DNA of 39,080 nucleotides from Dietzia cinnamea NBRC 102147 (lineage in GTDB: Bacteria > Actinomycetota > Actinomycetes > Mycobacteriales > Mycobacteriaceae): NCBI RefSeq assembly GCF_001571065.1, contig NZ_BCSW01000028.1, positions 1 through 39,080 on the forward strand, given 5' to 3'. The notes beneath the pieces are model-generated. The model had not been told where the DNA came from. It made no database searches and saw only the letters and a program-made list of their open reading frames with translations. Made by a program: the position numbers and the translations under genes. This document shows positions 1-24,830 of this stretch, piece by piece. How positions within the stretch are numbered: position 1 is the stretch's first letter; every line of letters starts with the position of its first letter.

Positions 1-348
1 CCCCGCCACGGCCACCGCCATCGGCAGGCGGGCCGCGACGCCGCGCGCGACCTCGACGTCGTCGGGGCGTACCGGGCAGACGGCGTCGACGACGAGGACC
101 GCCGCGTCCGGCCGGTCCTCGGGTGCGGCGTCGACGAGCACACGGATCCGGGCTCCGGCGTCGGCGGCCGGGCCCGCTGCGGCGGACAACCCTGTGCCCG
201 CTGCGGCGGACAACCCTGTGCCCGCTGCGGCGGACAACCCTGTGCCCGCTGCGGCGGACAACGCCGAGGCGACGGCGGGAGCCGCGGAGTCCCGGGCCCC
301 CAGCACCGCGATCGTCAACTCGCGGGGCGGGGCCGGAGCGGCCGTCAC
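1..348 (-). CDS. Hypothetical protein, N-terminal part, P-loop-like (cut by window edge)
   Basis: A leftward gene starts with GTG at 348 and runs off the left edge, so only about 116 N-terminal residues are visible. GTG overlaps the TGA of the upstream gene by four bases (GTGA), which implies translational coupling. The protein opens with a hydrophobic beta-strand-like stretch (LTIAVLGARDS) resembling the strand and loop that start a P-loop NTPase, but no GxxxxGK[ST] is visible. Four near-identical 8-residue units (LSAAAGTG type) follow where helix 1 would lie, then an RIRVLVDAAPEDRPDAAVLVVDAV segment that looks like the second core strand. I do not recognise the family. The partner gene has a similar degenerate motif, so the two may act as a pair near the cell-envelope cluster; this is inference. 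Confidence 0.6.
   Translation of the reverse strand, partial: MTAAPAPPRELTIAVLGARDSAAPAVASALSAAAGTGLSAAAGTGLSAAAGTGLSAAAGPAADAGARIRVLVDAAPEDRPDAAVLVVDAVCPVRPDDVEVARGVAARLPMAVAVAG
173..262. repeat. 24-bp tandem repeat, 3.75 copies, inside a coding region
   Basis: The unit cccgctgcggcggacaaccc plus tgtg occupies 173-196, 197-220 and 221-244 without mismatch. An 18-base partial copy sits at 245-262. Being a multiple of three, the array inserts 8-residue blocks (LSAAAGTG on the minus strand) without changing frame. Perfect identity between copies suggests recent expansion, so the copy number probably varies among strains. Confidence 0.95.
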
Positions 349-1004
349 GTCGACGCCGATCCGGGGAGCGCGGCCGCGCCCAGGGCGCACAGGGCGGCCT
401 CGGCGAGATCGCCCACCTCGTCGTGGACCGCGAGCATCTCCAACTCGGCCTCGAGACGGGACACCCGGGTCGTCGACAGATCGAGCAGGGCGCGTTCGAG
501 GAAGGACACGACGCCGTCGACCGACCGGTGCCCGGGCTCGCGCGCGTCCACGGCGGGTAGTCCACGGGCCCAGTGCGGCGGGTCCTCGTCGTCGTCGACC
601 CCCGTGGCCACCACGAGCATCGGGTGCCGGCGCGCGCGGCGAACCCACGCCTCCTCATGGCGGCACGGGGCGGTGCGTAGGCACACGATCTCCGCGTCCG
701 GCGGTGCGGCGGGCTCGGAGCCGGGCGCCGCGACGACGTCCAGGTCGTCGACCCGCGCGCGCCACCCCCGGCGGACGCGCAGCGCGGCGGCGAGCGTGCG
801 GCGACCCGAGCCCAGTCCGCCGCGAATGCGGATATCGGCCGGCGCGTCGACACGCGCGACGGCGGCCTCCACCGGGGCGGTCCCACCCCGGCCCCCGTCC
901 CGCTCCCGGGCGGACGCGACCAGGCGCCGGACCCGTGCGACGGGGTCAGGGTCGGGGGCACGAGCCGGGGCCGGGGGCTCGGTGTCGGGGGTCACGGATG
1001 GCAC
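345..1004 (-). CDS. Hypothetical protein with degenerate Walker A-like motif
   Basis: About 219 residues from a GTG at 1004; a second GTG at 995 is possible. A longer reading from 1181 would run into trmB on the other strand and is unlikely. The middle carries RGGLGSGRRTLAAAL, which has the spacing of a P-loop (GxxGxGKxTL) but Arg where the catalytic Lys should be. It is followed by acidic/hydrophobic strands (RVDDLDVVAAP, AEIVCLRTAP, MLVVATGVDDDE) like those of a Rossmann or GTPase core, and a C-terminal leucine-rich helical region. The last codon overlaps the start of the next leftward gene. It lies divergent to trmB. M. tuberculosis has uncharacterised genes (Rv0209, Rv0210) on this side of trmB; whether these are homologous I cannot show. 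No function is assigned. Confidence 0.55.
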   Translation of the reverse strand: MPSVTPDTEPPAPARAPDPDPVARVRRLVASARERDGGRGGTAPVEAAVARVDAPADIRIRGGLGSGRRTLAAALRVRRGWRARVDDLDVVAAPGSEPAAPPDAEIVCLRTAPCRHEEAWVRRARRHPMLVVATGVDDDEDPPHWARGLPAVDAREPGHRSVDGVVSFLERALLDLSTTRVSRLEAELEMLAVHDEVGDLAEAALCALGAAALPGSAST

Positions 1005-1104
1005 GCGATCATCGTGACCCGACCGCCTGCGGGCGGCAAGACCTTCCCCTCGGGCCCCGACGCCCGGATTCGGAGGCGACCACGGATTACGGGATGATGG
1101 CCGG

Positions 1105-1881
1105 GTGAACCAGAGCGAGAACCCCGCACACGCGGCCGGTGGCACCCCGGACGACAGTGGTACCCCGAACGACGGTGGCACCCCGGACGACAGTGCCCGT
1201 CTCTTCCCCCGGGTGACCGCCTACCGGTTCCGCCGCGGCACCCTGCGGCCCGGGCAGCAGCGCAACTGGGAGGAGCACTGGCCGACCTACGGGCGTAACG
1301 TCTCCGACGAGATCGTCGACCGCGAGGCGCTCTTCGGCCGGCGCGCACCGCTGATCGTGGAGATCGGCTCCGGCACCGGCACGTCCACGGCCGCGATGGC
1401 CGCGGCCGAGCCGGACATCGACGTCATCGCCGTGGAGGTGTATCAGCCCGGGCTGGCCCAGCTGCTGGGCATGATCCTGCGCGAGGGCCTGGAGAACGTG
1501 CGCATGATCCGTGGCGACGGCGTGGACGTGCTCACCAACATGTTCGCGCCGGCCGACCTGGACGGTGTCCGCGTGTTCTTCCCCGACCCCTGGCCCAAGG
1601 CCCGCCACCACAAGCGGCGGCTCCTGCAGTCCGGCACCTTCGAACTCATCGCATCGCGGCTGCGACCGGGTGGCGTGCTGCACGTGGCCACCGACCACGC
1701 CGACTACGCCGAGTGGATCGCCGAGACCGGCGACGCCGAGCCCGCGCTCCAGCGGCTGGACCCCGCGACGGACCTCCGCCACGTACCGTTCAGTCTGGAC
1801 AGACCCGTGACGAAGTTCGAGGGCAAGGGGCTGCAGGAGGAACGGGTGATCAACGAGTTCCTCTGGCGTCGGGTGCACTGA
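1105..1881 (+). CDS. trmB: tRNA (guanine-N7-)-methyltransferase TrmB
   Basis: This 258-residue protein uses S-adenosylmethionine to methylate N7 of G46 in the variable loop of tRNAs. It shows the class I methyltransferase glycine motif (VEIGSGTGTST, about residue 87), an acidic second strand (VIAVEVYQPG), the family signature RVFFPDPWPKARHHKRR, and the late HVATDHADYAEWI and TKFEGKG elements. The start is a GTG with a GATGAT hexamer six bases upstream, consistent with a leaderless message. The N-terminus carries three 6-residue repeats (GTPDDS type) before the conserved RVTAYRFRRG, an extension that looks dispensable. It heads the trmB - NYN - mmpL3 order known from M. tuberculosis. The gap to the next gene is 49 bases. 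Confidence 0.95.
   Translation: MNQSENPAHAAGGTPDDSGTPNDGGTPDDSARLFPRVTAYRFRRGTLRPGQQRNWEEHWPTYGRNVSDEIVDREALFGRRAPLIVEIGSGTGTSTAAMAAAEPDIDVIAVEVYQPGLAQLLGMILREGLENVRMIRGDGVDVLTNMFAPADLDGVRVFFPDPWPKARHHKRRLLQSGTFELIASRLRPGGVLHVATDHADYAEWIAETGDAEPALQRLDPATDLRHVPFSLDRPVTKFEGKGLQEERVINEFLWRRVH
1141..1194. repeat. 18-bp tandem repeat x3 in trmB N-terminus
   Basis: Copies at 1141-1158, 1159-1176 and 1177-1194; the outer two are identical and the middle one has four changes. They encode GTPDDS, GTPNDG and GTPDDS, a short disordered linker ahead of the TrmB core. Confidence 0.9.
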
Positions 1882-1930
1882 CGCCCCACCCCAGGAACCC
1901 CGAACGACGAGAACCGAGGCGGACGACGCG

Positions 1931-2605
1931 ATGACCCCACCAGACGAGATGCGCAACCACGACACGACGGACGTGGCCACGCCCGACGGACCGGGGGTGG
2001 TGCTCCTCGTGTGGGACGCACCCAACGTCGACATGGGGCTCGGCTCGATCCTCGGCGGCCGCCCGACCGCCGTGTACCGCCCGCGCTTCGACGCGCTCGG
2101 CCGCTGGCTGCTCGGCTACACCGCCGACCTGTCCGTGCGGACGCAGGACGCCCTCGAGGCCGAGGCGACCGTCTTCACCAACATCGTCCCGGGCACCTCG
2201 GACAACGTCCGCCCGTGGGTCGAGGCGCTGCGCAACGTCGGCTTCGCCGTCTTCGCCAAGCCCAAGACCAGCGACGACTCCGACGTCGACGACGACATGC
2301 TCGAGCACATCGACCGGCGCGCCGAGTCCGGCCGACTCGCCGGCGTCGTCGTGGCCTCCGCCGACGGGCAGGCGTTCCGCGAGCCCCTCGAGGAGCTGGC
2401 CGAGGACATCCCGGTCGCAGTGATCGGGTTCCGCGAGCACGCCACCTGGGCCGTCCAGCACGACACCATCACGTTCCTCGACCTCGAGGACATCCCCGGG
2501 GTGTTCCGCGAGCCCCTGCCGCGCGTCAGCCTCGACAACCTGCCCGACGAGGGTGCCTGGCTGCAGCCGCTGCGGCCGCTGTCGGCACTGCTCACCTCGC
2601 GCTAG
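1931..2605 (+). CDS. NYN (PIN-like) domain protein, Rv0207c-type
   Basis: A 224-residue protein with a single NYN domain, a PIN-like fold usually linked to RNA cleavage. The first strand ends in the diagnostic LLVWDAPNVDMGLG (Asp29, Asn32, Asp34). Further acidic positions of the presumed metal site lie in KTSDDSDVDDDMLEHI and in VVVASADGQAF. It begins 49 bases after trmB and stops 11 bases before mmpL3, so the three genes are probably co-transcribed. The same neighbour sits beside mmpL3 in M. tuberculosis (Rv0207c). The conserved linkage suggests an RNA-processing role coordinated with envelope synthesis, but no substrate is known to me. Confidence 0.85.
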   Translation: MTPPDEMRNHDTTDVATPDGPGVVLLVWDAPNVDMGLGSILGGRPTAVYRPRFDALGRWLLGYTADLSVRTQDALEAEATVFTNIVPGTSDNVRPWVEALRNVGFAVFAKPKTSDDSDVDDDMLEHIDRRAESGRLAGVVVASADGQAFREPLEELAEDIPVAVIGFREHATWAVQHDTITFLDLEDIPGVFREPLPRVSLDNLPDEGAWLQPLRPLSALLTSR

Positions 2606-2616
2606 GAGCTCCCCCG

Positions 2617-5085
2617 GTGTTCAACTCACTCGGGCGGTTCGTCGCCCGCCGCCGCGTCCTCGTCCTGATCTGCTCCGTGCTGGTCATGGCCTTCCTCAGC
2701 CTCGCAGGCTCCGCGTTCGGCAACCCGTTCGGCCAGGGCGGCTTCGAGGACCCCGACAGCGGATGGGCGACCGCCGAGCGGTTGGAGCAGGAGGCGTACG
2801 GACGCGACGCGCTCGGCGACGTCGTGGTGTCCTACCACGCCCCCGAGGGCACGTCGGTCGACGATCCGGCGTTCCAGGAGCCCATCCGGCAGTCGCTGGA
2901 GTCGATCCGGACCGAGAACCCCGACCGGGTCACCGGCGTGACCAGTTTCGTGTTCAACCAGTCACCGGCCCTCGTCAACCGTGACGCGGGCATCGCGGTG
3001 GCCTCCATCCAGATCGCCGGCGAGGCCGAGGAGATCCTCCAGAACTTCCGGGCGATCGAGGACCAGATCCCGGTCGAGGGCATCGAGACCGACATCGCCG
3101 GCCTGCAGCCCGTCGCCGGCGCCCTACAGGACGGCATGGACGCCGACCTCGTGCGCGCGGAACTCATCGCGCTGCCGCTCGTGTTCCTCCTGCTCATCGT
3201 GGTCTTCGGCGGCGTCGTGGCCGCGTTCCTGCCGGTCGCGGTGGGCGTGCTGACGATCCTCGGCTCGCTCGGCGCACTTCACCTGCTGTCACTGATCACG
3301 CCCGTGAACTCCTTCGCACAGAACGTCGTGACCCTCATCGGCCTGGGACTGGCGATCGACTACGGCCTGTTCGTGGTGAGCCGGTTCCGCGAGGAGATGG
3401 CCGAGGGGTATCCACCGGACGCCGCAGTGCGCCGGTCCGTGGCCACCGCCGGCCGGACCGTGGTGTTCTCGGCGGTCATGGTCGGCGTGACCCTGTCGGG
3501 CCTGCTGGTCTTCCCGCAGGACTTCCTCAAGTCCGTCGCCTACGGCGCGATCGCCGCGGTGATCCTCGCCGCCGCGCTCTCGGTGACCCTGCTGCCGGCC
3601 GTGCTCATGCTGCTCGGCCACCGCGTCGACGCGCTCGGCATCAAGCGGATGCAGCGGCACCGCACCCGCGAGGAGGTCGAGAACGGCCTGTTCGGCCGCG
3701 TCGCCGACTTCTCCATGAAGCGCCCGGTGGCGGTGGCGATCCCGGTCGTGGTGGTGCTGGTCGCGCTCATCATCCCGTTCTCGGGCGTGAAGTTCGGCGG
3801 CATCAACGAGACCTACCTGCCGCCCGACAACCCCACGCGCGTCGCGCAGGAGGAGTACGACCAGAACTTCCCCGGCACGCGGACCGACCCGGTCAAGCTC
3901 GTGATCCTCGGCTCGGACGGCGCGACGCTGTCGCAGATCCGCTCGGCCGCCAACGAGGCCCCCGGGCTCACCGGGCCGTTCCAGTTCGCCCGCTCGGGCG
4001 GGCAGGACTCGCAGGGCCGCGAGGTAGTGGTCCTGCAGGCCGGCGTGGAGGACCGCAACGCGGCCACCGAGACCGTCGAGTACCTGCAGTCCTTCCCCAT
4101 CCCCGCCGGCACCGAGGTGTTCGTCGGCGGCAACCCCGCCATGGAGAAGGACTCGGTCGACGCCCTGATCGCCGGGCTGCCATGGTTCGTCCTGTACGTC
4201 CTCGTGGCCACGACGCTGCTCATGTTCCTGGCGTTCGGGTCGCTGGTGCTGCCGATCAAGGCGGCCATCATGAACATGCTCGGCCTGGGCGCCACGCTGG
4301 GCATCCTCACGTGGATCTTCGTCGACGGGCACCTGTCCGGGCTGCTCGGCTTCACGCCGGGCCCGCTCACCTCGCCGGTCGTGGTGCTGCTCATGGCGAT
4401 CATCTACGGACTGTCAACGGACTACGAGGTGTTCCTCGTCTCGCGGATGGTCGAGGCCCGCTCACGCGGCGCGCGCACCGCGGTGGCGATCCGCAGCGGC
4501 GTCGCCCAGACCGGGCGGATCATCACGTCGGCGGCGCTCATCCTCATCGTGGTGACGGGCGCGTTCGCCTTCTCCGAGATCGTGATGATGAAGTACATCG
4601 CGTTCGGCATGATCGCCGCGCTCATCATCGACGCCACCGTCATCCGCATGCTGCTGGTCCCGGCGGTCATGCAGATGCTCGGCACCGACAACTGGTGGGC
4701 GCCGAGGTGGATGAAGCGGGTCCAGGAGCGGATCGGCCTCGGCGAGGCCGAGATCGACGACGAGCCCGAGCTCCTCACCGGTCGGCCCGCCGACACCGAC
4801 GGCACGGGACCGACCGGGGCCGCCACGTCGGTCGCCGTGCTCGACCGGGAGCCCGCGGGCACCAGCGCGCCGCAGGCGCGGGACGCCGAGCCGGAGCCTG
4901 CGCCCGCGCCCGAGTCCGAAACCGAGCCCGCGCCCGAGTCCGAAACCGAGCCCGAGTCCGAGTACGAGCCCGTCTACGACACGGAGTACGACGACGAGCC
5001 CGGGTCCGCGCCCGGCGGCAAGATCCCCGCCTCCGAGCTGATCGCCCGCCTGATGCAGGAACGTCGACAGGATCCAGAGGCGTGA
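2617..5085 (+). CDS. mmpL3: MmpL3-type RND transporter (trehalose monomycolate export)
   Basis: An 822-residue inner-membrane RND-superfamily protein. In mycobacteria MmpL3 is the proton-driven exporter of trehalose monomycolate for the mycomembrane. The fold is visible: one N-terminal membrane helix, a porter loop, helices 2-6, a second porter loop, and helices 7-12. The two proton-relay Asp-Tyr pairs are intact: Asp248-Tyr249 (GLAIDYGLFVVSRF) and Asp602-Tyr603 (GLSTDYEVFLVSR). The start is GTG at 2617, preceded by AGGAG at 2604-2608; a longer open frame upstream is only the shadow of the NYN gene. The C-terminal tail, from about residue 720, is a low-complexity Glu/Pro/Asp-rich cytoplasmic segment with an exact 24-bp DNA duplication. 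Gene order matches the mycobacterial mmpL3 locus. Confidence 0.93.
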   Translation: MFNSLGRFVARRRVLVLICSVLVMAFLSLAGSAFGNPFGQGGFEDPDSGWATAERLEQEAYGRDALGDVVVSYHAPEGTSVDDPAFQEPIRQSLESIRTENPDRVTGVTSFVFNQSPALVNRDAGIAVASIQIAGEAEEILQNFRAIEDQIPVEGIETDIAGLQPVAGALQDGMDADLVRAELIALPLVFLLLIVVFGGVVAAFLPVAVGVLTILGSLGALHLLSLITPVNSFAQNVVTLIGLGLAIDYGLFVVSRFREEMAEGYPPDAAVRRSVATAGRTVVFSAVMVGVTLSGLLVFPQDFLKSVAYGAIAAVILAAALSVTLLPAVLMLLGHRVDALGIKRMQRHRTREEVENGLFGRVADFSMKRPVAVAIPVVVVLVALIIPFSGVKFGGINETYLPPDNPTRVAQEEYDQNFPGTRTDPVKLVILGSDGATLSQIRSAANEAPGLTGPFQFARSGGQDSQGREVVVLQAGVEDRNAATETVEYLQSFPIPAGTEVFVGGNPAMEKDSVDALIAGLPWFVLYVLVATTLLMFLAFGSLVLPIKAAIMNMLGLGATLGILTWIFVDGHLSGLLGFTPGPLTSPVVVLLMAIIYGLSTDYEVFLVSRMVEARSRGARTAVAIRSGVAQTGRIITSAALILIVVTGAFAFSEIVMMKYIAFGMIAALIIDATVIRMLLVPAVMQMLGTDNWWAPRWMKRVQERIGLGEAEIDDEPELLTGRPADTDGTGPTGAATSVAVLDREPAGTSAPQARDAEPEPAPAPESETEPAPESETEPESEYEPVYDTEYDDEPGSAPGGKIPASELIARLMQERRQDPEA
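4903..4950. repeat. 24-bp exact duplication in the mmpL3 tail
   Basis: 4903-4926 and 4927-4950 are identical and encode PAPESETE twice in the acidic cytoplasmic tail. More diverged ESE/EPE units flank them. Confidence 0.85.
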
Positions 5086-5150
5086 CCGCCGCCCCGGGCC
5101 CCCGGTGTGGGATCCTGGGGCGGGCGGCACGCTCTGGTTATGGTGAGGTG

Positions 5151-6482
5151 ATGACGGGGACGCGGGGCGCCGAGGTGCGGCGCCGTATCCGGGCTGTCCT
5201 GGGCAACCCGTGGTTCAAGGCCGGCGCGACGCTCGCCGTCCTGGGGTTCATCCTGTACTGGCTCCGCGGCCAGATGCCGTTCTTCGCCGAGGGTTTCGAG
5301 GCCGTCGCGCGCCCGCACTGGGGCTGGATCGCCGCCGCTCTCGTCTTCTCCTACCTGTCCATGTCGAGCTACGGCTCCGTGCAGAAGGTGCTGCTGCAGT
5401 CCGCCGGCGTCCGCGTCGGCTACTGGGCCAGCGTCGGCCTCGTGTTCTCCGCCAACGCCTTCTCCACCTGCATCCCCGGCGGGCAGGTCTTCGGCACCAC
5501 CCTGACGTACCGCAAGACCCGGCAGTGGGGCGCGACCCGGGTCGTGGCGTCGTGGCAGCTCGTGATCTCCGGCGTCCTGTCGACCGTCGGCATCGTGCTG
5601 CTCGCCCTGCTCGGCTTCTTCCTCGTGGGATCCGTGTCCAACCCGTTCCTGCTGGTGCTCTCGGCGTTCGGCCTGGTCGCGATCGTCGTGGTGGTCCAGT
5701 GGGCGGCCCGCCACCCGGACAAGATCGAGGGGTCGGTCCTGTCGATCCTGGGCTGGATCAACGCCCGGCGCCACAAGCCCGCGGACCACGGCGCGGCCGG
5801 CGTGCGCAAGGTCGTCGAGCAGGCCGACGCCGTCGACCTGAGCAAGAGGCAGCTGTCCAAGGCGTTCGCGTTCTCCCTGCTCAACTGGGTCGCCGACATC
5901 GGCTGCCTGTGGGCGGCCGCCAACGCGGTCGGTGCCCAGCACAGCATCGGCGGCCTGTGCATCGCCTACGTCACCGGCAAGATCGTCGCCACCGCCCCCA
6001 TCACGCCCGGCGGGCTCGGGACCGTCGAGGTCGCGCTCATCACCGCCCTGACCGCGGGCGGGCTCGGCGCGCATCAGGCCTTCGCGACCGTGTTCGTCTA
6101 CCGCATCGTCAGCTTCGTGCTGGTCGCCCTGGCCGGGTGGGTGGTCTTCTTCCTCTTCTACCGTGGTGCCGTGGACGTCGACCCCGACGCCGACCCGTTG
6201 GGCGAACACGACCCGGGCGAGCAGTCCTCGTCGTCGTCCTCGTCGTCCGGGTCGTCTCGCACCGCACAGTCCCGCGCGACCGTCGCGGCGGCCCCACCGG
6301 CCGGGCTCACCGTGATGAGGCCGCTGCACGGGAACCCGTGGCGCCCGACGGTGACCCATGACTCCGGCCCGCTCCCGCTGCTCCGCGTGCGCGTGCGGGA
6401 GGACGGCGCCGCGGACGAGGAGTCGGGGCAGAACCCCTACCCGTTCACCGGCCGGGAGGCCCGGGAAGAGAAGGACAGGTGA
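5151..6482 (+). CDS. UPF0104/YbhN-like (lysylphosphatidylglycerol synthase TM-type) membrane protein
   Basis: A 443-residue polytopic membrane protein resembling the flippase/transmembrane domain family related to the membrane part of MprF. It has about eight hydrophobic helices and the family-type segments FSANAFSTCIPGGQVFGTTLTYR and GKIVATAPITPGGLGTVE, where the paired PGG turns are characteristic. No soluble lysyl-transferase domain follows. The last ~100 residues are hydrophilic and disordered, with a run of eight Ser. A TATGGT hexamer ends six bases before ATG 5151, suggesting its own leaderless promoter after mmpL3. The stop overlaps the next gene's GTG. Lipid or glycolipid movement across the membrane is an inference from the family and the mmpL3 neighbourhood. 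Confidence 0.8.
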   Translation: MTGTRGAEVRRRIRAVLGNPWFKAGATLAVLGFILYWLRGQMPFFAEGFEAVARPHWGWIAAALVFSYLSMSSYGSVQKVLLQSAGVRVGYWASVGLVFSANAFSTCIPGGQVFGTTLTYRKTRQWGATRVVASWQLVISGVLSTVGIVLLALLGFFLVGSVSNPFLLVLSAFGLVAIVVVVQWAARHPDKIEGSVLSILGWINARRHKPADHGAAGVRKVVEQADAVDLSKRQLSKAFAFSLLNWVADIGCLWAAANAVGAQHSIGGLCIAYVTGKIVATAPITPGGLGTVEVALITALTAGGLGAHQAFATVFVYRIVSFVLVALAGWVVFFLFYRGAVDVDPDADPLGEHDPGEQSSSSSSSSGSSRTAQSRATVAAAPPAGLTVMRPLHGNPWRPTVTHDSGPLPLLRVRVREDGAADEESGQNPYPFTGREAREEKDR

Positions 6483-6847
6483 GACCCGTGGCCGTGCCGG
6501 TCATGATCGTGCTCGACGCCGTGCTGGTGGTGGTGTTCTCCACCTTCGGGCGCGGCGCGCACTCCGAAGGCCTGGGCGTGGCGCAGGTGTGGGGCACCGC
6601 GTGGCCGTTCCTCGTGGGCCTGGCGGTGGGCTGGCTCGTCCTGCTGGCCGGCCGCCGAGAGCCCTCGTCGATCGGCTCGGGCGTGCTGCTGTGGCTGGCC
6701 ACGCTCGTGGTGGGCATGGTGATCCGCGGGCTCGGGGACGGCCGGGTGCCGCACTGGAGCTTCATGATCGTGGCCGGTGTCGTCACCGGGGTGTTCCTGG
6801 TGGGGTGGCGCGCGGTGCGCGCGATGCTCGTCCGACGACGGCGCTAG
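6479..6847 (+). CDS. DUF3054 family membrane protein
   Basis: A 122-residue protein with four predicted membrane helices, matching the small DUF3054 family: an N-terminal helix (MIVLDAVLVVVFSTFGRGAH), the GTAWPFLVGLAVGW segment and basic ends. It starts with GTG at 6479 inside the last codons of the upstream gene, so the two are translationally coupled. A later in-frame GTG at 6488 is an alternative. Function is unknown. Its TAG overlaps, tail to tail, the stop codon of the lysozyme gene on the other strand; the two genes share the four bases 6844-6847. Confidence 0.75.
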   Translation: MRPVAVPVMIVLDAVLVVVFSTFGRGAHSEGLGVAQVWGTAWPFLVGLAVGWLVLLAGRREPSSIGSGVLLWLATLVVGMVIRGLGDGRVPHWSFMIVAGVVTGVFLVGWRAVRAMLVRRRR

Positions 6848-7836
6848 CGCAGCCCGTCCGCCAGCTGCGCCACGACCTCCGCCGGGACCTCGATGGACTC
6901 GGGCAGCCGCACGCCGTCGGGCGTCGGGAGATCGCGCGGGACGGGGATCGTCACGGCCTCGACGGGCACGGGGACCTCGGGCGGGATCGGCGCCGCGGCC
7001 TCGGCGGCCGGAGCCGGGGCAGGCTCAGGCGCAGGGGCGGGCTCGGGCGCGGGCTCGACGGGCCCGAGCCACGCGTCGAGGTCCGCGCGGGTGCCGGCGA
7101 AGACGTTGAGGTCCACGTCGTCGGCGAACCCGGGGACCTCGCCGGTCTCCGAGCGCTGCCAGAACAGCCACTGGCCCCAGCCGCCGATCACGGGCAGCGT
7201 CGGTTCGGACACGCCGTACTCGGCGAGCCACAGCGGGTACTCGGCGAAGCGCGGGGTGTTGTCCATGCGGTCGATCCAGAAGTAGCGGTACGTGTAGAGG
7301 ATCGGCGTGCGGCCGGTGCGGTGCGCGAGCGTGTCGAGGAAGACCTGCGTCCAGTCGGCGAGCTGCCGGGCGTCGAGCCCCTCGTCGGTCTCGAGGTCCA
7401 GCACGGGCGGCAACTGCGGGCCGCCCACCGACTGCAGTCGGTCGGCGAACGCGTGGGCCTGCTGCGCGGGGTCCATCGCGGGGCGGGCCTTGTGGTAGCT
7501 GCCCACGAGCATCCCGGCGGCGCGCGCCTCGGCGATGTCGGCCTCGTAGTACCGGTTGGCCGGCCCGGTGCCCTCGGTGGCCTTGATGAAGGCGAAGGAC
7601 TGTCCGGCCGCGGCGGCGGCGTGCCAGTCGACCCCGGCACCGTGCGGGTGCTGCCAGCTGGAGGCGTCGAGTCCCTGCGCGAGGCCGTGATAGACGGGGG
7701 AGAGCGGCACCTCGGCGTCGGCGCGGGGGGAGAGGACGACGACGAGGAGGCCGACCGAGAGAGCTGCTGCAGAGGCCAGGGCGACGAGGAGTCGGGGGAG
7801 GAGGGCGCGTCGGGCTGACGGTCCGGCAGAAGTCAT
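6844..7836 (-). CDS. Secreted GH25-family lysozyme (N-acetylmuramidase)
   Basis: A 330-residue peptidoglycan hydrolase with an N-terminal membrane or signal segment (LLVALASAAALSVGLLVVVL) and a GH25 barrel. Key residues are visible: GLDASSW (Asp57) at the first strand, FAFIKATEGT, and the catalytic pair in VLDLETDEG (Asp147, Glu149). The barrel ends with WLFWQRSETGEVPGF and DVDLNVF. A Pro/Ala/Glu tail (PAPEPAPAPEPAPAP) and a short acidic C-terminal region follow, perhaps a wall-spanning spacer. ATG 7836 places the signal peptide well; an upstream ATG at 7860 would add eight residues. It probably acts in cell-wall remodelling. It converges on the DUF3054 gene without a visible terminator. Confidence 0.88.
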   Translation of the reverse strand: MTSAGPSARRALLPRLLVALASAAALSVGLLVVVLSPRADAEVPLSPVYHGLAQGLDASSWQHPHGAGVDWHAAAAAGQSFAFIKATEGTGPANRYYEADIAEARAAGMLVGSYHKARPAMDPAQQAHAFADRLQSVGGPQLPPVLDLETDEGLDARQLADWTQVFLDTLAHRTGRTPILYTYRYFWIDRMDNTPRFAEYPLWLAEYGVSEPTLPVIGGWGQWLFWQRSETGEVPGFADDVDLNVFAGTRADLDAWLGPVEPAPEPAPAPEPAPAPAAEAAAPIPPEVPVPVEAVTIPVPRDLPTPDGVRLPESIEVPAEVVAQLADGLR

Positions 7837-21273: not shown

Positions 21274-22215
21274 TCAGTAGTTCCAGTCGCCCTGACCGTC
21301 GAAGGCGCCGAAGGGCCGGCCGGGGCCGTTCTTGACGATGAACGGGTCGCCGTTGCGGGTGGTGTCGTAGTACCAGCGGGCGTCCTCGGGGCTGACGTTG
21401 ATGCACCCGTGGGAGACGTTGCGGACACCCTGATCGGCGACCGACCAGGGGGCTGAGTGGATGTAGATGCCGTCGTAGCTGAGCCGGACGGCGTCGTTGA
21501 CGATCGAGTTGTAGCCGCCCTCCTCGATCCGTAGCCCGAACGTCTCGGAGTTCATGCGGACCTGCCGCCCGCGCTGGCCGGTGTAGTAGATGCCGTTGTA
21601 GGTGTCCCAGCCCGGGCGGCCGGCGGAGGCGCGCATGGTGCGGACGTGCTGGCCGTTGCGGGTGACGGTGACGAGCTTGGTGCGGTCGTCGAACTCGGCG
21701 ATCACGGCGTCGCCGGTGCGGAAGGACTGCTGACGCTTGCCGCCGGCCCACACGGTGACGGAGGTGTTGACGGGCCAGAACTGGTGGGGGCGCCAGCGGA
21801 CCTCCCGGTCGCCCACCCAGTAGAACTTGCCCGCCACCGGCGGTTCGGTGCGGATGCCGATGGTCGCCTCGGCGCGGGCACGGTCGGTGATGGGCCGGTC
21901 GAAGAAGAACATGACCGGCTGTGCGACGCCCACGACCTCGTTGGGGGTCGGGAAAACGTTGACGTCGCCGTACTCGGGGGCGGGCCGCGCCGGCCCGACG
22001 ACCGGGTAGGTCAGTACCGGTATCGCGGGCACACCCGGGATGACGGGGGTCGGCAGCGGGGCGTTCTCGAGCTGGGGGACGCCGGGCGGGCTCAGCGGCA
22101 TGACGGACTGGGCCTGCGCGGCGGGGGCGGCCCCGGTGGCAGCCGGGACGCCCAGGACGAGGGCGACCGCGGCGAGGATCGCGGCGGCTGCCGAGGAGCG
22201 GGGGTGTCGGGGCAT
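21274..22215 (-). CDS. L,D-transpeptidase (YkuD type), copy 1
   Basis: A 313-residue secreted enzyme that makes 3-3 cross-links in peptidoglycan or attaches proteins to it. A signal peptide (AAILAAVALVLGVPAATGAAPAAQA) is followed by a Pro-rich linker and an Ig-like domain (GVAQPVMFFFDRPI to WAGGKR). The catalytic domain ends in IHSAPWSVADQGVRNVSHGC, with Cys271 as nucleophile and the upstream His. A ribosome-binding site AGGAG precedes ATG 22215. There is no typical lipobox. It is tandem with a close paralogue upstream. Actinobacteria usually carry several such enzymes, and carbapenems target them. Confidence 0.93.
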   Translation of the reverse strand: MPRHPRSSAAAAILAAVALVLGVPAATGAAPAAQAQSVMPLSPPGVPQLENAPLPTPVIPGVPAIPVLTYPVVGPARPAPEYGDVNVFPTPNEVVGVAQPVMFFFDRPITDRARAEATIGIRTEPPVAGKFYWVGDREVRWRPHQFWPVNTSVTVWAGGKRQQSFRTGDAVIAEFDDRTKLVTVTRNGQHVRTMRASAGRPGWDTYNGIYYTGQRGRQVRMNSETFGLRIEEGGYNSIVNDAVRLSYDGIYIHSAPWSVADQGVRNVSHGCINVSPEDARWYYDTTRNGDPFIVKNGPGRPFGAFDGQGDWNY

Positions 22216-22339: not shown

Positions 22340-23263
22340 TCAGTAGTTCCAGTCGCCCTGTCCGTCGAAGGCACCGAACTGCCTGCCGGGGCCGTTCACC
22401 ACGATGAACGGGTCGCCGTTGCCGGTGTTGTCGTAGTACCAGGCCGCGTCCTCGGGGCTGACGTTGATGCACCCGTGGGAGACGTTCCGGACGCCCTGGT
22501 CGGCGACCGACCACGGTGCGGAGTGGATGAAGATGCCGTCGTAGCTGAGTCGCACGCCGTTCTCGACGGTCGTGTCGTAGCCGCCGGCGTCCATCGCCAG
22601 TCCCCAGGTGGAGGAGTCCATGCGTACCTGGCGGTCGCGCCAGCCGTTGTAGTAGATCCCGTTGTGGGTGGGGAAGGCGTCGCGGCCGGCGGAGGCGCGC
22701 ATGGTGCGGATGACCTCGCCGTTCCGGGTGACGGTGACGAGGTGGGTGTTGTCGTCGTAGGTGGAGACGATCGCGTCGCCGGTGCGGAAGGCGTGCTCGC
22801 GTCCGCCCGCCCACACGGTGACGGAGGTGTGGGCCGGCCAGAACTCGTGCGGGCGCCAGCGCAGTTCGGTGTCGCTCACCCAGTAGAACTTGCCGCCGAC
22901 CGCGGGGGCGGTCCGGATCGCCACGGAGGCCTCGGCGCGGGCGCGGTCGGTGACGGGGCCGTCGAAGTGGATCATCACCGGCTGTGCGACGCCGACCGTC
23001 TCGCCCGGGGTGGGGTAGACGGAGGCGACGCCGACCTCGGCGGCGGCGCGCGCCTGTGCGGGGACGGGGATCGTGAGGATCCCGGTCGAGCCGGGCATCG
23101 GGGGAGTGGGGACCGGGGCGGATTCGGAGCCGAACGCGCCGACCGATCCGGTGGATCCGGTGTAGCCGGCGAGTGACTGCGCGGAGGCGGCGGGGGAGAG
23201 GCCGACGACGACGAGGCCTGCCGTGGCCAGAAGTGGGGCGATGATCCGGGGTCGGCGCGACAT
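22340..23263 (-). CDS. L,D-transpeptidase (YkuD type), copy 2
   Basis: A 307-residue paralogue of the next gene, with the same layout: signal peptide (IIAPLLATAGLVVVGLSPAASAQS), Ig-like domain (GVAQPVMIHFDGPV), and a catalytic domain with His and Cys265 in the same IHSAPWSVADQGVRNVSHGC motif. The final ~70 residues of both proteins are almost identical. ATG 23263 is preferred, with GAGGAG seven bases upstream. A TATTGT hexamer at 23370-23375 on this strand could be its -10. Differences lie mainly in the N-terminal linker, suggesting similar chemistry with different reach. Confidence 0.93.
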   Translation of the reverse strand: MSRRPRIIAPLLATAGLVVVGLSPAASAQSLAGYTGSTGSVGAFGSESAPVPTPPMPGSTGILTIPVPAQARAAAEVGVASVYPTPGETVGVAQPVMIHFDGPVTDRARAEASVAIRTAPAVGGKFYWVSDTELRWRPHEFWPAHTSVTVWAGGREHAFRTGDAIVSTYDDNTHLVTVTRNGEVIRTMRASAGRDAFPTHNGIYYNGWRDRQVRMDSSTWGLAMDAGGYDTTVENGVRLSYDGIFIHSAPWSVADQGVRNVSHGCINVSPEDAAWYYDNTGNGDPFIVVNGPGRQFGAFDGQGDWNY

Positions 23264-23572
23264 CGGTCTCCTCGGTGCGGCGCCGCGATGAGGCGGCGGG
23301 GCGGGGCGACGCGGGCGCACGGGCGGGCCGGAGCGGTTAGTCCCATGCGCCACATCAGTAACAGGAGCAACAATACCCTCGCCTCGTCCCGCCTGTACAT
23401 CCCGTGGGGCGCAGGGCGTCCCGGGCCGCCGCGGACCCGCGGGCGCGACTCGCGGACCCACGACGCGCAACCGTCCCAACGTTCGTTGGTAACGGGGATC
23501 GGAGAACCGCTGGTAGGCACGCCGCGGGTCGTTATTGACCGTAAGTCAGCTACAGAACTCCTGCTCATGGGG

Positions 23573-23601
23573 TTGATGTGGTCTCGGATGCAACATATGG
23601 T
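23573..23601 (+). promoter_or_regulatory. Promoter of the RNA candidate
   Basis: TTGATG (23573-23578), a 17-base spacer and TATGGT (23596-23601) give a good housekeeping-type promoter within a locally AT-richer stretch. It points into the structured region, with transcription expected to start near 23608. The rest of 23264-23572 shows nothing I can name beyond the leader of the transpeptidase on the other strand. Confidence 0.55.
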
Positions 23602-23607
23602 CGACGC

Positions 23608-23811
23608 AGTCACCGCCTGAGGGGTCGGTGGCGAGAGTGAAGTGGTTGCTGAGGGGCTGCGACTTCACACTTCAAAAGGGGCCGGTCGTGAGACCGGGGC
23701 ACCTGGGGGGTGCCACCCGCAGCCGTGTAAGGCAGCGAGGAAGGCCGGATCGTGCTCGATCCGCCGGATAGAGGAACGGCGTCGGATGCTGAGGGGCTCC
23801 GGCGCCGTTCC
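23608..23811 (+). ncRNA. Candidate structured RNA, partly cobalamin-riboswitch-like
   Basis: Five stems follow one another: 23637-23643/23662-23668 (7 pairs); 23682-23687/23692-23697 (6 pairs, GUGA tetraloop); 23698-23703/23709-23714 (6 pairs); 23747-23752/23757-23762 (6 pairs, tgct loop); and 23773-23786/23798-23811 (14 pairs). The run CAAAAGGGGCCGGT, the hairpin ending ACCGG, then CCCGCAGCCGTGTAAG and GAGGAAGGCCGG, resembles the conserved core of cobalamin riboswitches (AAAGGGAA, GGTG...CC, CCGCAxCxGT, GGGAAGG). However, the final AGCCAGGAGACC box is not clear. The first and last loops both contain GCTGAGGGGCT. No gene follows on this strand. The identity is uncertain; a structured transcript is better supported than the ligand. 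Confidence 0.45.
23773..23811 (+). terminator. Terminator-like stem ending the RNA candidate
   Basis: A 14-pair stem (one T-G wobble) with an 11-base loop, followed by a short pyrimidine-rich CCGTCTGT. It is the strongest hairpin of the region and lies between the RNA and the convergent lipoprotein gene, so it can serve either strand. Three copies of TCGGCGGGCC follow at 23830, 23841 and 23857. Confidence 0.55.
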
Positions 23812-23879
23812 CGTCTGTGCCGACAGGCTTCGGCGGGCCCTCGGCGGGCCCAGTCTTCGGCGGGCCGTGTCGCCGGCTG

Positions 23880-24830
23880 TCAGGCGAGTATGCGCTGCGC
23901 CACCCGGTGGAGTCCGCTCAGCGCTGACGCCTCGGCGTCGGGCGACCGCGGGGTCTCCGGCTTGAGCAGGGTGATGTGCCACAGCTCGTCGCCGGACACC
24001 AGGATCGTGTGCACCTCGACTCCGCCGCCGGTCGGCGCCGCCACGCAGTCGATGTAGGCCGTGGCCAGGTCCGGTCGGACGGGCGCGGGCGCCCCGGGGG
24101 CCGCCGGCGCCGCGTCCTGGATCGCCGCGGCGTCGCTCCCGCGCACCTCGGAGCAGGCGTAGCGCACCCCGAGGAGCGTGGCCTGCTCGGCGAGGGCCGC
24201 CTCCGCCCCGGCGCGCGGCGTGACGACGCCGGCGGCGAACGTGTCGGGGACGATCCCGGGGTCGAACGCCGGCGCGGTCGGCGAGGTGGTCACCGCCGCG
24301 GACGTGGTCTGCTCGGCCCCGGCCCCGGCCCCGGCCCCGGCCCCGGTCTCATCCTCGGCCTCGGTCGTCTCCGTGTCCTCCGTGGCGGTGACGGTGGTCT
24401 CGACCCCGTCCGCCCCGGTGACGGTGGTCTCGGTGCCGGTGGTCCCGGTTCCGGTCGCGGCGGCGGAGCGCTCGGCCTCGAGTCGCTCGGGCGAGCCCGG
24501 ACCGCCGTAGGTGCACAGTAGGCCGAGGTCGCCGGAGCCGGTGGGGTCGACCTCCGGCATGTCCGCGCGGGTGAGCTGGATGATCTCCTCGGTGGTCAGG
24601 TCCAGCAGTTCGCAGGCGTTGAGCCGCTCGTCGGGTGCGGGTCGGCCCTCGACCATCGCGGCCGCGATGTCGTGTCGGGGATTCGGCGTCAATCGTGGCG
24701 GGCCGGAATCGCCCGCGTCGGGGCCGGCCGTGCACCCGGCGACCGCGGCGACGGCGGCGATCGCCGCGAGGGTGCTGGATCCGCGAGCGAGACGACGACC
24801 GCGCGCCGGTCGGGGTCCCTGGGATCGCAT
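23880..24830 (-). CDS. DUF3558-like lipoprotein
   Basis: A 316-residue secreted lipoprotein: a Tat- or Sec-type N-terminus, a hydrophobic stretch and a lipobox ending VAGC. The N-terminal half carries NACELLDLTTEEII and a paired Cys (LLCTYGGPG), as in the DUF3558 family of mycolata. A 70-residue Thr/Glu/Ala-rich insertion, including (GA)n coded by a CCCCGG hexamer array near 24314-24346, separates it from the second half (GVRYACSEVRG, AYIDCVAA), which restores the Cys pair. TAGGAT lies six bases before ATG 24830, suggesting leaderless expression. Function is unknown; surface exposure is likely. Confidence 0.75.
   Translation of the reverse strand: MRSQGPRPARGRRLARGSSTLAAIAAVAAVAGCTAGPDAGDSGPPRLTPNPRHDIAAAMVEGRPAPDERLNACELLDLTTEEIIQLTRADMPEVDPTGSGDLGLLCTYGGPGSPERLEAERSAAATGTGTTGTETTVTGADGVETTVTATEDTETTEAEDETGAGAGAGAGAEQTTSAAVTTSPTAPAFDPGIVPDTFAAGVVTPRAGAEAALAEQATLLGVRYACSEVRGSDAAAIQDAAPAAPGAPAPVRPDLATAYIDCVAAPTGGGVEVHTILVSGDELWHITLLKPETPRSPDAEASALSGLHRVAQRILA

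Follow-up and report, generated by a model that had tools for sequence, protein, structure and literature searches.

The window analysed here is a stretch of 39,080 nucleotides from Dietzia cinnamea NBRC 102147 (contig NZ_BCSW01000028.1). A gap between two genes on its minus strand almost certainly holds, as judged from the sequence, a stand-alone, non-coding, structured small RNA gene on the plus strand, whose promoter is conserved and whose end resembles a terminator (Table 1). The divergent neighbour encodes an L,D-transpeptidase and is one of two tandem genes of this kind (21274-22215 and 22340-23263), which are ~64% identical to each other. The convergent neighbour is a lipoprotein-like ORF with no Pfam or NCBIfam match, present in 20 of 61 genomes, all of them Dietzia. 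A preliminary description of this DNA had placed a promoter, several stems and a long terminator-like stem on one strand in the gap, and each was recovered at the same position. The -35 and -10 hexamers are separated by a 17-nt spacer, and the RNA has the 5' end AGTC, 7 nt past the -10 hexamer, in 19/19 loci. Since a generic scan for sigma-70 promoters and terminators found neither kind of site at its thresholds, the promoter and terminator calls rest on conservation and not on a consensus score. The U-tract after the last hairpin is weak.

Table 1. Features of the small RNA locus, the 6C RNA and the kgd upstream region (positions in the window unless another locus is named)
Feature	Position	Strand	Basis
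L,D-transpeptidase (YkuD, Big_10), divergent neighbour	22340..23263	-	Pfam; adjoins the small RNA in 19/19 loci
Candidate activator/operator site, conserved inverted repeat YTGANC-NN-AAGTCAR	23535..23549	.	Alignment; centre ~66 nt upstream of the start
-35 hexamer TTGATG	23573..23578	+	TTG kept in orthologues
GCAACA, then -10 hexamer TATGGT at 23596-23601 (TANNNT in orthologues)	23590..23601	+	GCAACATA in 19/19 loci (one mismatch allowed)
Small RNA, ~204 nt, inferred start A23608	23608..23811	+	R1 match and covarying structure of 59 pairs
Hairpin P1, GAGGGG in loop	23609..23632	+	Folds and covariation structure; first of the stems
Hairpin P2, loop UGAGGGG, stem varying by compensation	23637..23668	+	Helices 2-3; 4 pairs changed on both sides
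Linker with AGGGG end, invariant in 16 full-length orthologues	23669..23681	+	Alignment
Hairpin P3, CCGGUC...GACCGG	23682..23697	+	Helix 4; inner pair C-G in 12, G-C in 1, A-U in 1, unpaired in 2
Hairpin P4, GGCACC-UGGGG-GGUGCC, proposed 6C-pairing element	23698..23714	+	Helix 5; match to cognate 6C
Hairpin P5	23715..23740	+	Helix 6; no pair changed on both sides
Hairpin P6, variable sequence, fold kept	23743..23765	+	Helix 7; 3 pairs changed on both sides, 88.7% of cells paired
Hairpin P7, long, terminator-like, near-invariant loop GCUGAGGGGC	23774..23810	+	Helix 8; 99.6% of cells paired
Lipoprotein-like ORF, convergent neighbour	23880..24830	-	Adjoins the small RNA in 18/19 loci
Dietzia 6C RNA	L140 1500-1607	reverse	Likewise 13 further loci
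23-nt invariant element GCATCCCCCTGTCAGGTGAGATC upstream of kgd	L177 ~1500	reverse	Likewise 14 further loci

The conserved inverted repeat upstream of the promoter would, by its position, fit an activator site. Its exact pattern occurs once in the D. cinnamea genome, upstream of the small RNA, and TTGACNNNAAGTCAA occurs twice when one mismatch is allowed. The repeat is also found elsewhere in some other genomes, including G011, which lacks the small RNA and carries two such sites. A regulon sharing the repeat was rejected, as the repeat is near-unique in the D. cinnamea genome.

We rejected a protein-coding gene at this position, because the reading frame is not kept across 16 sequences. Columns of the alignment combine positions from mixed frames, and each of the six frames is interrupted in at least one of the 16. 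Long open stretches do exist on both strands, in frames that differ among the sequences. The earlier impression that the gap contains no convincing protein gene was thus correct, as was the remark that the next gene lies on the opposite strand: none is present on the strand of the RNA for more than 1 kb downstream.

Several measures support a conserved fold. The plus strand folds to -123.7 kcal/mol compared with -98.1 +/- 4.3 kcal/mol for 200 shuffled sequences (z = -6.0), none of which folded as low. Seven hairpins, P1-P7, were defined manually, with RNAalifold and per-species folds as the guide (the latter for 15 of the 16 sequences), and the pairs were counted on a plain MAFFT alignment of the 16 sequences. 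Of the 933 cells of the alignment, 95.4% are paired, a value that none of 500 shuffles reached and that is favoured by the structure having been taken from the same sequences. Changes on both sides of a pair occur in 10 of the 59 pairs (24 cells), again reached by 0/500 shuffles; the number of further pair types was reached by 4/500. Sliding the partners against each other breaks the structure. Compensation is clearest in P2 and P6, and pairs changed on both sides are found in four of the six hairpins other than P7 (P2, P3, P4 and P6), P7 itself being the most invariant hairpin. The preliminary description had counted five stems and a terminator and had proposed a search for covarying pairs in related genomes: a structured RNA with compensatory changes is what we find, with seven hairpins in place of that count. 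Genomes G021 and G022 have a shortened form of 129 nt, in which P2, P5 and P6 are missing and the G-rich stretches of P1, the linker, P4 and P7 are kept. We also considered a G-quadruplex and rejected it, as it appears in the best fold of only 2 of 17 orthologues.

The RNA appears to be a feature of one genus. A search with the DNA itself matches 21 of the 61 genomes at E<=0.01, of which 19 belong to the set of 23 Dietzia genomes; the two matches outside the genus (G030 and G050) are short, at 20 and 33 bases. A covariance model (R1) was built from 16 orthologues, which match it by construction, as does the D. cinnamea locus itself (23607-23815, 188.9 bits). R1 finds the RNA in 19 of the 23 Dietzia genomes and in 14 of the 15 good ones. 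Across 298 genomes of the order, where the filters were stricter and weak matches are lost, it returned the D. cinnamea genome itself and two partial matches, both to the terminator hairpin. One weak second match in G012 (23.9 bits) was set aside after inspection. The gene neighbourhood is retained in nearly all loci (Table 1), and the single locus without the lipoprotein neighbour is cut by its contig end. Among the Dietzia genomes without a match is G011 (one contig, 99% complete), where searches for the lipoprotein ORF and for 6C also came back empty. In G018 both neighbours are present, the lipoprotein gene being cut by a contig end, and no small RNA was found in the short gap between them; G007 and G019 are 82-83% complete, and absence is not to be judged there. 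At gathering score, Rfam gave no match, cobalamin included, in the window, nor any match in eight orthologous loci. Cargo of a mobile element was rejected, since collections of plasmids and phages gave no match at E<=1e-5. We conclude that the locus is very probably a genuine small RNA gene, one that Rfam lacks and that is confined to Dietzia among the genomes searched.

A candidate partner is 6C. The 6C/B11 RNA (RF01066) is well conserved among Actinobacteria; in mycobacteria this small RNA represses mRNAs through C-rich loops (PMC10470900, PMC8628891), its C-runs acting on G-rich leaders (PMC10470900, PMC12395582). No chaperone for it has been reported in mycobacteria, where its overexpression slows or stops growth (PMC10470900, PMC8628891). 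In Dietzia, the Rfam 6C model scores 43.5-45.8 bits in 5 of the 23 genomes (E<=0.001), below its cut-off of 47. The identity of the D. cinnamea 6C is supported by its flanks, with a HAD-IB hydrolase gene on one side and on the other an Ssd-like gene that scores below its family cut-off; they correspond to those of Mycobacterium tuberculosis B11 between rv3660c and rv3661 (PMC8628891). A second model (R2) was built from six Dietzia 6C RNAs, which match it by construction, and it gave 19 matches, of which 14 full ones were used and five weak second matches were dropped. 6C is thus found in 14 of the 23 Dietzia genomes and in 13 of the 15 good ones, and all 14 also carry the small RNA. The reverse case is G016 (99% complete), in which the small RNA is present and R2 searches did not find 6C; G013, G020, G001 and G006 likewise carry the small RNA and gave no 6C. 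Loose Rfam 6C matches below 40 bits were inspected (L116-L118, L120, L122 and L123), and only L116, from G012, was accepted as 6C. R2 also gave 16 weak matches across nine further genomes; nine of these matches were inspected, and none was 6C-like. The two RNAs are proposed to be partners and not relatives: 6C has C-rich loops, another fold and another genomic place, the small RNA has G-rich loops, and the RF01066 model gives no match on either strand of the small RNA at E<=10.

The Dietzia 6C has a C-rich linker between its 5' hairpin and hairpin 1, which reads GCAUCCCCC..AGGUGCUC in most species. The form GCA[TA]CC..AGGTG occurs in 0/16 6C RNAs of other genomes. A C-run before hairpin 1 is also present in 6 of 16 6C RNAs of other genera, none of them with the Dietzia flanks, and we therefore withdrew the notion of a C-rich insertion special to Dietzia 6C. 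Hairpin P4 of the small RNA, (G/A)GCACCU-GGGGG(G)-GUGC, is the antisense of this linker, and the duplex between the two has 17-19 pairs in the six genomes for which it was computed. Pairing was tested in 11 of the 14 genomes with both RNAs, three near-duplicates being left out. In 10 of the 11 genomes, the pairing of P4 with the linker of its own 6C has an energy of -27.0 to -40.4 kcal/mol (G021, -23.6 kcal/mol), and that with the best stretch of the cognate 6C lies at -33.5 to -40.4 kcal/mol in nine (G004, -27.3 kcal/mol). The background consisted of 25,772 windows, all taken from the 39-kb window with 23501-23900 left out. The number of these that pair with P4 as well as the own 6C does was 0 in G012, G010, G009 and G015, 1 in G000, G014, G002 and G005, 4 in G017, 16 in G004 and 301 in G021; it is thus at most 1 in 8/11 genomes and at most 16 in 10/11, and these counts are not independent, as the genomes are related and both P4 and the linker are conserved. 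Outside P4, the G-rich elements P1, P2, linker and P7 behave in an ordinary way towards 6C in five genomes (101 to 7,016 windows as good), and low counts also occur for P1 of G005 (20) and for P1 and P7 of G021 (20 and 17).

Comparisons between whole RNAs and between genomes qualify this match. The D. cinnamea P4 reaches only -24.2 to -29.3 kcal/mol when paired with 6C RNAs from 15 other genomes. A foreign 6C (L104) reaches -34.9 kcal/mol with P4 of G012 and -35.2 kcal/mol with P4 of G002, compared with -33.5 kcal/mol for the own 6C of G002. The best local complementarity between the whole RNAs covers P4 and the linker in 10 of 13 pairs. In other genomes, too, exact matches of 7-9 nt turn up at unrelated sites. 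Shuffling of whole RNAs gave weak results: two rounds were mostly not significant, and in the test of local complementarity 1 to 66 of 400 shuffles did as well in 12 of 13 genomes and 337/400 in G021. In two of the whole-RNA shuffle rounds, the RNA of G005 stood in for that of G003, the two genomes being identical over the small RNA.

When the costs of opening both RNAs are counted, the full P4-linker duplex comes to +7.3 (D. cinnamea), +5.5, +5.5, -4.0, +0.3 and -6.6 kcal/mol in six genomes. The best pairings reach -5.2 to -10.4 kcal/mol, G021 apart, which is near the -6.6 to -7.5 kcal/mol of five controls with 6C of other genera, since a G-run that is exposed will bind whatever C-run is exposed. 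In 8 of the 11 genomes, the small RNA enters its best pairing through P4, the 6C side being the linker in three of these and the C-loop of hairpin 1 in five. Co-folding of the D. cinnamea pair uses the AGGGG of the small RNA linker and not P4 (4 pairs, -4.3 kcal/mol). According to these models, the pairing with 6C would have to gain from kinetics, from co-transcriptional folding or from a protein.

The two genomes with the shortened RNA form an exception. In G021 and G022, the linker of 6C is changed to GCAUCCCCCGAGAG, and P4 matches it poorly; nine of ten foreign P4s beat G021's own P4 on the G021 linker. The P1 loop of the short RNA, however, reads UUGGGGGAUGC, the exact 9-nt complement of the changed linker. 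In G021, only 8 of the 25,772 windows match as well as this loop and the linker do, and the net energy of -16.3 kcal/mol is the strongest accessible pairing among the 11 cognate and five control pairs. The match in G021/G022 is a post hoc observation of a single event.

Taken together, these computed pairings suggest that 6C may be the main partner of the small RNA, which would act as a sponge, or antagonist, of 6C in the manner of RosA. We assign this reading a probability of roughly one half, at about 0.48. That the RNA is a dedicated Dietzia antagonist, which evolved with the matching linker of 6C and was re-matched through another loop in G021 and G022, is a more tentative proposition. Mechanistically, the G-run in the P4 loop would first kiss the C-run of the linker near the 5' end of 6C, and the pairing would then zip outward through the flanks to up to 17-19 pairs. 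The small RNA would thereby occupy 6C, remove it, or both, and the loss of free 6C would relieve G-rich mRNA leaders, the targets repressed by 6C in mycobacteria. The C-loops of the 6C hairpins could be contacted as well, by P4 and by the remaining G-rich loops (P1, P2, linker and P7), and the upstream inverted repeat suggests a transcription factor that would set when the small RNA is made.

The strongest alternative is a small RNA that acts in trans on mRNAs, pairing by its repeated UGAGGGG loops, the match to 6C being incidental or secondary. We regard this as unlikely, if far from negligible. Loops of the UGAGGGG type recur in P2, the linker and P7, and in five genomes they match 6C no better than chance DNA does, which is what such an RNA would lead one to expect. 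However, sites complementary to GCTGAGGGGC are not enriched in the genome, with 13 occurrences compared with 41 for the reversed control. Two of the 13 are the antisense of the small RNA itself, and by rough gene calls only one of the 11 others (L125) has a predicted start on the matching strand no more than 30 nt away.

The same repeated loops could instead be sites for an RNA-binding protein, which the RNA would titrate as CsrB and RsmZ do. Several hairpins with near-identical G-rich loops, some of them on compensating stems, are in keeping with this idea, as is the short form in G021 and G022, which dispenses with P2, P5 and P6 and retains the G-rich P1, linker, P4 and P7. CsrA sites have a GGA core, and sponges of the CsrB/RsmZ type combine repeated ANGGA loops with a CsrA protein in the genome. 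The UGAGGGG loops of the Dietzia RNA contain neither the GGA core nor ANGGA, and protein titration would leave the match between the flanks of P4 and 6C unexplained. We consider it improbable.

A motif resembling P4 has a second home in these genomes, as GCATCCCCCTGTCAGGTG stands upstream of kgd in 18 of the 23 Dietzia genomes. The gene, named by NCBIfam, encodes an oxoglutarate decarboxylase/dehydrogenase, and in 15 aligned loci the motif is part of a 23-nt invariant stretch (Table 1), 108 nt before the start of kgd in D. cinnamea. Such a motif can therefore have a reason other than 6C: the small RNA might act at kgd, or the two places might share a protein-binding DNA site. P4 pairs with the kgd element at -25.8 to -29.2 kcal/mol. 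All five P4s tested pair more strongly with their cognate 6C, although in G004 the two are nearly equal (-25.8 and -27.0 kcal/mol). The element also lies upstream of an invariant -10-like hexamer, TAGCCT, so that it is probably outside the kgd mRNA, and 4 of the 15 loci come from genomes in which no small RNA was found (G007 and G019) or in which it is shortened (G021 and G022). The location of the element indicates that it is probably a DNA site, and a candidate activator site. That kgd accounts for the P4 motif, in either of these two ways, is very improbable.

There is a similarly slim chance that only P7 matters, as a bidirectional terminator between two genes, and that the remainder is transcription noise. 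P7 is the most invariant hairpin and stands between convergent units. The promoter and the start are conserved as well, however, and pairs changed on both sides in P2, P3, P4 and P6 are difficult to reconcile with noise. The preliminary description had offered three further readings. A ligand-controlled small RNA finds no support here, whereas pairing with a second small RNA, 6C, finds some. An antisense regulator of the convergent lipoprotein gene is poorly supported, because the RNA ends at ~23811, ~70 nt short of the end of the ORF at 23880, and the two would not overlap unless transcription reads through. The third, a diverged cobalamin riboswitch or the remnant of a B12-controlled gene, can practically be dismissed. 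The "partial cobalamin core" amounts to short look-alike stretches, and the proposed comparison with Rfam gave no match to RF00174 at gathering score or at E<=10, the latter search returning only two unrelated weak matches in 23480-23900. A riboswitch of this class would be the leader of a downstream gene, and here the next gene lies on the other strand, with no gene on the same strand for more than 1 kb. A remnant would decay, and the small RNA is kept as an independent RNA with compensatory changes throughout the genus.

Sponging of 6C by the Dietzia RNA would have its closest parallel in RosA of Bacillus subtilis, described as a stand-alone sponge of ~229 nt for RoxS and FsrA, with its own promoter and terminator (PMC8216469). 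The Dietzia RNA (~204 nt) is likewise stand-alone with its own promoter and terminator-like end. In both RNAs G-rich regions match C-rich regions of small RNAs, in the Dietzia case those of the proposed partner 6C, and these small RNAs act on mRNAs through C-rich regions. The evidence differs: RosA, from Firmicutes, has binding, half-life and proteome data, whereas the Dietzia RNA belongs to another phylum, has 6C as its proposed partner and rests on computed pairing. The P4 match also reaches into the flanks, with 17-19 pairs in six genomes, unlike that of RosA. RsaI (RsaOG) of Staphylococcus aureus binds C-rich small RNAs through G-rich regions, as proposed here, and it has in addition a C-rich region for mRNAs (PMC8216469), whereas we see no C-run loop in the Dietzia RNA. 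Within the phylum, the Dietzia RNA resembles Ms1/6S RNA in being intergenic and in the range of 200-300 nt, and Ms1 is found in Actinobacteria. Ms1 and 6S RNA have the shape of one long bulged hairpin. Ms1 mostly adjoins a HAD hydrolase gene (PMC9130861). We rejected an Ms1/6S-like RNA, as the Dietzia RNA lies between L,D-transpeptidase and lipoprotein genes and folds into a row of local hairpins.

In the open-licence literature, no paper on a Dietzia small RNA was found among the titles listed, and the available part of one Dietzia paper (PMC12472514) names a small RNA only in a reference. Among the matches listed from the same literature, titles and the beginnings of abstracts yielded no actinobacterial or mycobacterial RNA sponge of this kind. 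What is new is the RNA, the phylum and the proposed partner, the suggested mode of sponging being already familiar from Firmicutes. Even if the link to 6C does not hold, the RNA constitutes a family absent from the Rfam release searched. We know of no earlier RNA sponge in Actinobacteria, so that the Dietzia RNA, if the proposal is true, would be the first. The RNA pair offers base pairs that can be tested and compensated. If true, a natural antagonist of 6C would answer how one genus turns 6C down, and it would suggest that G-rich sponges arose here apart from those of Firmicutes.
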